Position numbers and translations under genes: made by a program | NCBI RefSeq assembly: GCF_001904635.1 | Contig: NZ_MRCB01000001.1 | Location: forward strand, 381,667-445,666 | Direction of reading: 5' to 3' | Length of the DNA stretch: 64,000 nt | DNA from: Hydrococcus rivularis NIES-593 | Lineage (GTDB): Bacteria > Cyanobacteriota > Cyanobacteriia > Cyanobacteriales > Microcystaceae | Notes under the pieces: model-generated | Database searches by the model: none | Told to the model about the DNA's origin: nothing | What the model saw: only the letters and a program-made list of their open reading frames with translations | In this document: positions 56,793 to 58,903 of the stretch, in pieces | How the letters are laid out: each line of letters starts with the position of its first letter | Position numbering within the stretch: the stretch's first letter is position 1

Positions 56793-58193
56793 ATGAGCTT
56801 AGTTATTGCGGGCGAACGTAGTGGGGTAGGAAAGACAACCGTCACCCTGGCGATGCTTTCATTTTTGTCTCGTCAAAAAAGCAAGGTGCAGTCTTTTAAA
56901 ATCGGTCCGGATTACATCGATCCCATGTTTCATACCTCGGTCACGGATCGCCCTTGTCGCAATCTAGATCCGATCCTGACTTCCGAAGCTTATGTGCGAT
57001 CCTGTTTTGCTTCCCATTGCCAAGGTATGGGCTATGCGTTAGTAGAAGGAGTCATGGGATTATTTGACGGCGTTGCATCATCTGGTGAAAACAAAGGACA
57101 AATAACAGATTTTGCTAGTACTGCTCATATCGCCCGACTGCTAGAGTTACCCGTTGTATTAGTCATTGATTGTAGTCGCTTGTCGGGTTCGGTTGCTGCC
57201 ATCGTCCACGGCTATCGTTCGCTCGATCCCAGAATCAACCTTGCTGGCATAATTTTAAATCGGGTTGGGAGCGATCGCCACTTAACTTTACTCAAAAATG
57301 CCCTAGAACCTGTCAAAATTCCAATTCTAGGAATTTTGCACCGCCAAGACGAGATTGCTATCCCAGACAGACACCTCGGCTTAATTCCAAGCGCAGAACT
57401 AAACCACTTAGAAACCCTTTTCGATCGCTTAGCACACTTAGCTCACAATAGTTTCGATTGGGAACGATTGCTACCTTTACTAAAAGTCTATTCTTCACCG
57501 AGTCCCCCAGTCCCCCAGTCCCCCAGTCCCCCAGTCCCCCCGTCTCCGATTAAAATCGCTATTGCCCGCGATCGCGCCTTTAATTTTTATTATCAAGATA
57601 ATCTCGACCTATTAGAAAAACTCGGCGCTGAACTTATTCCTTGGAGTCCTCTGGAAGACGCAAAACCGCCTGAAGCAGCTTGCGGACTCTACTTTGGTGG
57701 CGGGTTTCCTGAAGTCTTTGCTAGAGAGCTTGCTGAAAATCACTCGGCACGCGAAGCCGTTCGTCAAGCCGTTTTATCGGGAATGCCAACCTATGCCGAG
57801 TGCGGCGGTTTGATGTATCTGTGCGAAAAGCTAGTAGACTTTAACGAACAAACTTGGTCTATGGTCGGGATTTTGCCTGCAAATGCCGCAATGGGAAAAC
57901 ATCTAACCCTTGGATACCGCCAAGCAACTGCTCTAGACAACAGTTTACTCTTTAGGGCTAAAGAAACTGTTTGGGGACACGAATTTCATCGCTCTCAACT
58001 AACTTCCCAGCCTCAACCACCACTATTTGAAACTAGAGGCTGTTGGGTAAACAGTCCGGTTTTTCTAGAAGGATGGCGATTTCAACAAGTTCATGCCTCC
58101 TATATTCATTTGCATTTCGGCACCCAGCAAGCAATTGCTCAACGATTTCTTGCCCGCTGCCTTGCTTTTCACAAAGAAAATAGGTTAGGATGA
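56793..58193 (+). CDS. cbiA: Cobyrinate a,c-diamide synthase CbiA
   Basis: The enzyme amidates the a and c carboxylates of cobyrinate with glutamine and ATP during cobalamin or pseudocobalamin synthesis. The N-terminal dethiobiotin-synthase-like domain has AGERSGVGKTTVTLAML at residues 5-21. The C-terminal glutaminase-like domain has YAECGGLMYLCEK with the nucleophile cysteine, and HEFHRSQL. Between them (about residues 236-252) is a linker made by an 8-bp tandem repeat. Length 466 aa is normal. No cobalamin riboswitch is visible upstream. Confidence 0.92.
   Translation: MSLVIAGERSGVGKTTVTLAMLSFLSRQKSKVQSFKIGPDYIDPMFHTSVTDRPCRNLDPILTSEAYVRSCFASHCQGMGYALVEGVMGLFDGVASSGENKGQITDFASTAHIARLLELPVVLVIDCSRLSGSVAAIVHGYRSLDPRINLAGIILNRVGSDRHLTLLKNALEPVKIPILGILHRQDEIAIPDRHLGLIPSAELNHLETLFDRLAHLAHNSFDWERLLPLLKVYSSPSPPVPQSPSPPVPPSPIKIAIARDRAFNFYYQDNLDLLEKLGAELIPWSPLEDAKPPEAACGLYFGGGFPEVFARELAENHSAREAVRQAVLSGMPTYAECGGLMYLCEKLVDFNEQTWSMVGILPANAAMGKHLTLGYRQATALDNSLLFRAKETVWGHEFHRSQLTSQPQPPLFETRGCWVNSPVFLEGWRFQQVHASYIHLHFGTQQAIAQRFLARCLAFHKENRLG
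57501..57540. repeat. Five tandem AGTCCCCC octamers inside cbiA
   Basis: Exactly five copies of the 8-bp unit AGTCCCCC run from 57501 to 57540. As 8 is not a multiple of 3, the array is read in changing frames and yields a S/P/V/Q-rich linker. Gain or loss of one unit would shift the reading frame of the second domain. Confidence 0.95.
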
Positions 58194-58246
58194 CAGATGT
58201 CGTCTTTGAGACATAAACCGTTCAGGCAACAAAGGAGGTGATGCCC

Positions 58247-58318
58247 ATGGTAGAAAGTAGTAAAATCATGGGTCTCCTGGTTGATAATAGCCGGCTGCGT
58301 GCCGGGGCTGTTCTCTAG
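58247..58318 (+). CDS. Possible 23-aa leader peptide
   Basis: The ATG at 58247 follows AAAGGAGGTGAT (58231-58242), a 12-nt perfect match to the 16S 3' end. It opens MVESSKIMGLLVDNSRLRAG and ends AVL with TAG. The peptide enters the structured region, so translation should disturb the folding. The start codon lies in a CCCATG/CATGGG inverted repeat (58244-58249 and 58267-58272). No homologue is known to me. Confidence 0.45.
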   Translation: MVESSKIMGLLVDNSRLRAGAVL

Positions 58319-58393
58319 CAGTCAGTTTAACCTGTTTAAACTGCTGCTGGCGTTCCTTCCGGCAGTCAGGTTTCAACCAGAAGACCCACTAGA

Positions 58394-58456
58394 CCGCTCT
58401 CGCATCCCGTGTCGCTAAATGAGACACTATCCCTATGCGAGAGCGGATAGCTTTTT
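58394..58456 (+). terminator. Strong intrinsic terminator after the structured RNA
   Basis: CCGCTCTCGCAT (58394-58405) and ATGCGAGAGCGG (58435-58446) form a perfect 12-bp stem. GTGTC/GACAC (58409-58413, 58423-58427) makes an inner stem. TTTTT follows at 58452-58456. It ends about 43 nt before the queF start. Confidence 0.88.
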
Positions 58457-58498
58457 AAGGGCGATCGCTCCCCTAGGTAGGTTGATGAGAATGGTAAA

Positions 58499-58903
58499 AT
58501 GCAAGCACCCGAACGAGAAAAACCAGAAATGAAATACGGAGAACGCGCGATCGCACAAGGAGAGTTAATTACTTTCCCAAATCCCCGTATCGGTCGCCGT
58601 TACGATATTCACATTACTTTGCCAGAGTTTACTTGTAAATGTCCCTTTTCTGGCTATCCCGATTTTGCCACGATTTATATTACCTATTGTCCGGATGAAA
58701 AGGTCGTGGAGTTAAAAGCTCTGAAACTGTATATTAATAGCTACCGCGATCGCTATATTTCCCACGAAGAAGCGGTCAATCAAATTTTAGATGACTTTGT
58801 GGCTGCTTGCGATCCACTAGAAGCTAAAATTAAAGGGGATTTTAACCCACGGGGAAACGTACATACGGTAATTGAAGTTTGTCATCACAAGCAAAGTCAA
58901 TAA
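58499..58903 (+). CDS. queF: NADPH-dependent 7-cyano-7-deazaguanine reductase QueF
   Basis: QueF reduces preQ0 to preQ1 in queuosine synthesis. The single-domain (type I) form is recognised by TCKCPFSGYPDFATI, with the catalytic cysteine in CPFSG, and by the QueF motif LKALKLYINSYRDRYISHEE. Length (134 aa) is normal. The first ATG is at 58499; a second at 58529 (MKYGERAI) would give a shorter N-terminus close to other QueF proteins. The gene follows the structured RNA and its terminator, so its promoter is either read-through or located in the 43 nt between. Confidence 0.92.
   Translation: MQAPEREKPEMKYGERAIAQGELITFPNPRIGRRYDIHITLPEFTCKCPFSGYPDFATIYITYCPDEKVVELKALKLYINSYRDRYISHEEAVNQILDDFVAACDPLEAKIKGDFNPRGNVHTVIEVCHHKQSQ

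Follow-up and report, generated by a model that had tools for sequence, protein, structure and literature searches.

The window is a stretch of 64,000 nucleotides of cyanobacterial DNA from Hydrococcus rivularis NIES-593. Between positions 56793 and 58903 it contains a cobB-like gene (56793-58193), a compact unit of small features and the gene queF (58499-58903). These names, like the other gene names used below, were recognised by us from the translations and should be taken as presumptive. The cobB-like gene carries a tandem CCCAGTCC repeat (57498-57545) that encodes a Pro/Ser linker. The features of the compact unit are the following:

58162-58191, + strand: promoter-like region (TTGCTT, 18 nt, TAGGAT) inside the 3' end of the cobB-like gene, assigned by homology
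58217-58225, + strand: untranslated 5' block CCGTTCAGG, conserved among homologs
58231-58242, + strand: maximal Shine-Dalgarno (SD) sequence AAAGGAGGTGAT, of which GGAGGTGATG is invariant in 87 homologs
58243-58273, + strand: putative start-hiding hairpin, GCCCATG (58243-58249) with CATGGGT (58267-58273) and GAAAGTAGTAAA in the loop, from pairing and folding
58247-58318, + strand: 23-codon ORF MVESSKIMGLLVDNSRLRAGAVL, ATG at 58247-58249 and stop codon TAG at 58316-58318, conserved in homologs
58270-58307, + strand: 5' strand of the long stem, GGGTC...GCCGGGG, entirely within the ORF, from covariation
58319-58349, + strand: apical hairpin just 3' of the stop codon, paired in the fold but freely variable in sequence and length, with indels of any size
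58357-58387, + strand: 3' strand of the long stem, with GACCC (58383-58387) at its end, which competes for the GGG that the start hairpin uses, from covariation and folding
58391-58457, + strand: intrinsic terminator CCGCTCTCGCAT...ATGCGAGAGCGG followed by ATAGCTTTTT, from sequence and fold

A scanner for consensus promoters and terminators, run with strict rules, found neither at this locus. The terminator was missed because its loop is too long, and a terminator of similar kind is present in most homologs. The promoter of the window copy, which also escaped the scanner, is probably weak and was placed by homology, the pattern TTGN3-N16-18-TAN3T preceding the SD in 52 of 84 homologs but in only 8% of shuffled sequences. 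The 5' block is kept as CCGTTYAGG in nearly all cyanobacterial homologs. Over 245 nt the window copy folds with a z-score of -4.85, and none of 200 shuffles was as low.

The first-pass annotation had described a 12-nt SD, a 23-codon ORF and the arms CCCATG and CATGGG, all of which are present in the sequence at the positions given, the arms being extended by one pair in the list above. The genome, of 5.14 Mb, has three copies of the 12-mer AAAGGAGGTGAT, of which this is the sole one within the window, where even GGAGGTGAT is found once. The only other 12-nt maximal SD seen in the genome before an ATG at normal spacing (G000:C2:113634-113645, L249) precedes an ORF which we take to encode ribosomal protein L10. 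The complementarity of AAAGGAGGTGAT to the 3' end of the 16S rRNA is textbook knowledge, and it is on this that the statement rests here, since a search of the assembly for the 16S 3' end did not find it.

Of 98 relatives nearly all gave a match to the element in a DNA search, and a covariance model found exactly one copy per genome in 119 of the 386 genomes of the phylum, all of them in the class to which the window belongs. The same model found no copy in the small-genome family f41, which is probably the marine Synechococcus/Prochlorococcus group. Most members of the Cyanobacteriia have a single genomic copy of the element. Systematic scanning covered Cyanobacteria and Chloroflexota. Among the matches listed in a collection-wide pattern scan there were cyanobacteria and at least three Anaerolineales (L134, L186 and L216); as the cyanobacterial model gives the latter only weak scores (E 0.01-0.03) they are regarded as probable and not as certain members. 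The cyanobacterial model alone detects one Chloroflexota group at E ~1e-6, and patterns combined with a second model retrieve 51 of 301 Chloroflexota genomes at E <=0.01, about 40 of them strongly and with essentially one copy each. Viral contigs gave no match to the element, and a distant search of plasmid records with a Chloroflexota member gave none either.

The gene upstream of the element is often cobB or psbD. At many loci (L038, L046, L048, L055, L057, L064 and others) the assembly breaks 250-600 bp 5' of the element; where the gene on that side can be read it is often psbD-like, psbD being a gene that is commonly duplicated. Downstream, the first-pass annotation had spoken of a leader, and queF indeed starts about 40 nt past the terminator on the same strand. 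A cis-acting leader or attenuator of the following gene would also accord with the porin gene that is often next in cyanobacteria (48 ORFs in the cluster) and with the methylmalonyl-CoA mutase small-subunit-like gene that follows in Anaerolineales. However, queF is the next gene only in the genome of the window and its nearest relative, PCD-like, cysK-like and unrelated genes occupy this place as well as porins, 23 of 83 loci have a convergent gene in this position, and no common downstream gene was found in the Chloroflexota. Moreover, Rfam models (preQ1, cobalamin, 6S, Cyano-1 and others) gave nothing at the gathering threshold and nothing up to E 5 at the locus, and Rfam searches of the Chloroflexota members matched no family; a preQ1 riboswitch or queF leader was rejected on these grounds together with the lack of conserved linkage. 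The context thus already largely refutes a cis-acting leader, which we regard as very improbable, and the word leader has to be given up. With its own terminator and promoter-like sequence, and with the next gene so frequently convergent, the element stands alone: it is an independent transcription unit and not a leader of queF.

The small RNA ncl0160 of Synechocystis PCC 6803 has been described with 83 homologs in 89 cyanobacterial genomes and with a conserved peptide of 23-25 residues which a ribosome site always precedes, the stop codons being TAA in 47 cases, TAG in 34 and TGA in 2 (Brenes-Alvarez et al. 2016, PMC4734099). The element likewise has an ORF of 23-25 codons behind a ribosome-binding site and occurs in nearly all cyanobacterial lineages except f41, and its stop codons follow the same order (TAA 109, TAG 100 and TGA 2 across all lineages). 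As all the features given in the main text of that paper match, the cyanobacterial element is very probably ncl0160, an identification made by description and not by sequence. The same main text contains no alternative folds, covariation, non-cyanobacterial occurrence or function (PMC4734099). The alternative folds with their putative switch, the covariation and the range into the Chloroflexota appear to be new, no description of them having been found in the literature. Norf-type small proteins of Synechocystis were also considered and set aside, as the reported constructs and sizes differ (PMC5126843).

The ORF of 23-25 codons is intact in all 203 extracted cyanobacterial loci; outside this set L071 and L083 look frameshifted and L088 is without the exact SD. 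The codon-level conservation that had been proposed for examination in related genomes was found: indels in the ORF are multiples of three only and the stop codon is kept, as TAA, TAG or rarely TGA, whereas the region just past it varies freely in length, for which reason a frameshift extension beyond the stop was rejected. A set of 87 diverse homologs shows no variation in GGAGGTGATG, in the ATG or in GGGTC, and the spacing between SD and ATG is invariant too. The ATG and SD, whose loss from homologs had been named beforehand as a finding that would count against the first-pass reading, are conserved in more than 200. This comparative evidence indicates that the ORF is translated. The peptide gave no match in Pfam or NCBIfam, and its strings retrieved only unrelated matches from the literature.

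These observations would also suit a conserved small-protein gene in which the peptide alone matters and the RNA structure serves stability, the folds having no regulatory role. The motif M-x-[DE]-S-S-K-x-M-G ... A-G-[AE]-[AV]-[LR] is common to both phyla, the stop codon is retained despite changes of its letters, and ncl0160 is judged likely to be translated in the main text of the published analysis (PMC4734099). However, third-position entropy barely exceeds that of the first and second positions and codon choice is fixed at sites that both folds require, Gly9 being GGT in 54 of 54 sequences. Ser4-Ser5 (58256-58261 in the window) are likewise encoded almost exclusively by AGT AGT, which lies in the hairpin loop and which neither fold explains.

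The pairing evidence extends this constraint beyond the peptide. The long stem (58270-58307/58357-58387) comprises 27 pairs and is 97.2% paired across 87 sequences; 15 of the 27 pairs have changed on both sides, which none of 500 shuffles attained, and the signal collapses if slid by one column. The earlier claim that the GGG in the right arm of the hairpin (58270-58272) is also needed for the stem with GACCC at 58383 is borne out: GGGTC (58270-58274) can pair with GACCC (58383-58387). In the start hairpin 96.9% of cells are paired, with one-sided wobble changes only; double changes are missing because the 5' arm is fixed. The 3' strand of the long stem lies beyond the ORF and yet is equally conserved, which a gene constrained by its peptide alone does not account for.

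Sequestration of the SD by the anti-SD-like CCUYC of the 3' strand was examined and rejected: it is pairable in 98.4% but without covariation, and when the ORF is blocked the pairing of the SD to the tail is 0.30 against 0.55 for shuffled tails, below the control. The same comparison weighs against a trans-acting dual-function sRNA, which would pair mainly with other mRNAs while the ORF only tuned its folding. Such a molecule would fit a free-standing element with one copy per genome and a strong terminator, as well as the conserved unpaired GUUCC and the loop GAUAGUAGUA, and ncl0160 was published as an sRNA in the account cited above (PMC4734099). Nevertheless the length and frame of the ORF are conserved throughout, and the short Chloroflexota forms are without the GUUCC motif, so that a mainly trans-acting role seems to us quite improbable.

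Folding of 105 homologs gave a start-hairpin probability of 0.92 for RNAs ending at the stop codon, 0.95 for those ending just before GACCC and 0.13 once GACCC is included. Opening the ribosome site costs about 11.5 kcal/mol without GACCC and 5.5 kcal/mol with it, a decrease shown by 97% of the 105 homologs, while the cost stays at 10.4 kcal/mol if the last 12 nt are shuffled, all these energies being thermodynamic values that leave aside kinetics, Mg2+ and proteins. In the full-length fold of the window copy the SD is free (2% paired) and the ATG is paired (99%), partly with the 5' block; the opening cost is 8.9 kcal/mol, and the start region pairs upstream as well as downstream. The two mutually exclusive structures of the first-pass annotation are supported, with one refinement: on thermodynamic grounds the long stem is predicted to win in the full RNA and the start hairpin only in shorter RNAs. 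Completion of the transcript would thus be the first predicted trigger of a switch to which, at the level of sequence, these folds point.

Exclusivity is kept in the Chloroflexota with different letters. Their common 5' block, SD, spacing and start read CCGnYYAGGnAnrAAGGAGGTGATGCCCATGAGTGATAGTA, in which the 5' block takes the form CCGnYYAGG, and their ORFs of 13-21 codons (for example MSDSKRMGVTAGETR and MSDCSKRQGVTAGEAL) differ in sequence from the cyanobacterial ones. The ribosome-binding site is nearly always GGTGATGCCC and pairs with an ORF arm of the form GGG[CT][AG]T[CT][AG]C[CT] in a hairpin of 10 bp; the arm also pairs with a downstream near-copy of the ribosome-binding site. The variants of the arm include GGGTGTCACC, GGGCGTCGCC, GGGCATCACC and GGGTATCACT, and in those of GCCC type the pairing with the ribosome site of the same copy is complete (10/10). 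The arms match their own downstream segments with a score of 9.18, against 8.53 for permuted ones (0 of 500), in a permutation which, like the counts, ignores kinship. Of 37 Chloroflexota sequences 84% show a lower opening cost in the full RNA, and L256, L258, L259, L272, L276 and L277 show no opening in the full fold. As the arm pairs with the ribosome-binding site and covaries with the downstream near-copy, both folds look selected, and nothing argues more strongly for the use of both than this double constraint. Moreover, all arm variants retain wobble pairing to the fixed ribosome site, which a peptide-only gene would not require; taken with the frozen synonymous sites and the 3' strand, this makes such a gene unlikely.

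Three Anaerolineales loci (L134 1657-1908, L186 6667-6829 and L216) have an 18-codon ORF, M[VS]DSSTxxSAAASLLxxG, with the same ribosome-binding site, a long stem (GCGCTGCGG) and a terminator. The ORF of L134 and that of L186 lie directly 5' of genes which we take to be methylmalonyl-CoA mutase B12-binding (small) subunit-like and meaB-like. GATAGTAGT recurs in part of the Chloroflexota. In a group with genomes of 6.0-6.8 Mb (L242-L247) the element adjoins, in L242, the 5S and 23S rRNA genes, in convergent orientation.

The reading that we favour, with a probability of roughly 55%, is an independent small gene with a bistable mRNA, whose start is hidden until the transcript is finished and whose translation is then self-limiting. 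According to the folding predictions the hairpin would shut the start site during transcription, and once GACCC has been transcribed the long stem would capture GGG(UC) and free the ribosome-binding site, so that translation would be delayed to the completion of the transcript. Since codons 8-21 make up the 5' strand of the long stem, each ribosome would have to melt this stem, whereupon the start hairpin could re-form and limit re-initiation; this resetting of the fold by translation is suggested by the geometry. The output is probably the peptide in controlled amounts, and an additional role of the RNA is conceivable.

Leader-peptide attenuators of the TnaC and trp type also have a short ORF that overlaps one strand of competing stems, as the ORF of the element does. 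They differ in that no consistent regulated gene follows the element, and the competition here concerns the ORF's own start site. In the AapA/hok systems the finished mRNA is kept translationally closed, whereas the predicted opening cost of the element falls in the full RNA. We know of no antisense RNA to the element. The nearest mechanism in the literature is that of the AapA mRNAs, in which metastable hairpins are proposed to sequester the SD during transcription and to be replaced later (PMC6733600). A metastable SD-hiding hairpin preceding long-range pairing is predicted here too, and together with the small ORF it would be compatible with a type I toxin mRNA whose antisense antitoxin is still to be discovered. 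Unlike mobile toxin-antitoxin loci, however, the element is strictly single-copy and almost universally conserved over two phyla, and it has no toxin-like peptide, the short polar peptides of the Chloroflexota (e.g. MNDSKRMGVAAGEAR) not being membrane toxins by composition. As the full-length form is moreover predicted to be open, opposite to AapA and hok, a toxin mRNA appears highly unlikely.

A wider proposal can be made tentatively. The bistable gene may represent an unrecognised RNA family of Cyanobacteria and Chloroflexota, in which an arm of the ORF pairs both with the ribosome-binding site and with its downstream near-copy, only finished transcripts would be translated and ribosomes would reset the switch. 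As the SD is near-perfect over such a distance, the RNA might report on free ribosomes or initiation capacity. It is rare for a gene of 13-25 codons to be kept as a single copy in each genome over two phyla while its RNA is constrained as strongly as its peptide, and neither Rfam nor Pfam nor NCBIfam has this family. Should the switch be real, it would be a compact natural case, other than the toxin-antitoxin systems, in which translation is coupled to the completion of the transcript. It would also offer a testable explanation for the conservation of a maximal SD in cyanobacteria, where the use of such sequences is thought to be weak.

Cyano-1/Yfr2 and Yfr1 are likewise small RNAs found throughout the cyanobacteria; they gave no model match at the locus, and to our knowledge they have no conserved ORF. 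A Cyano-1 RNA of the Yfr2 type lies close to the element in L013 (1617-1691, minus strand).
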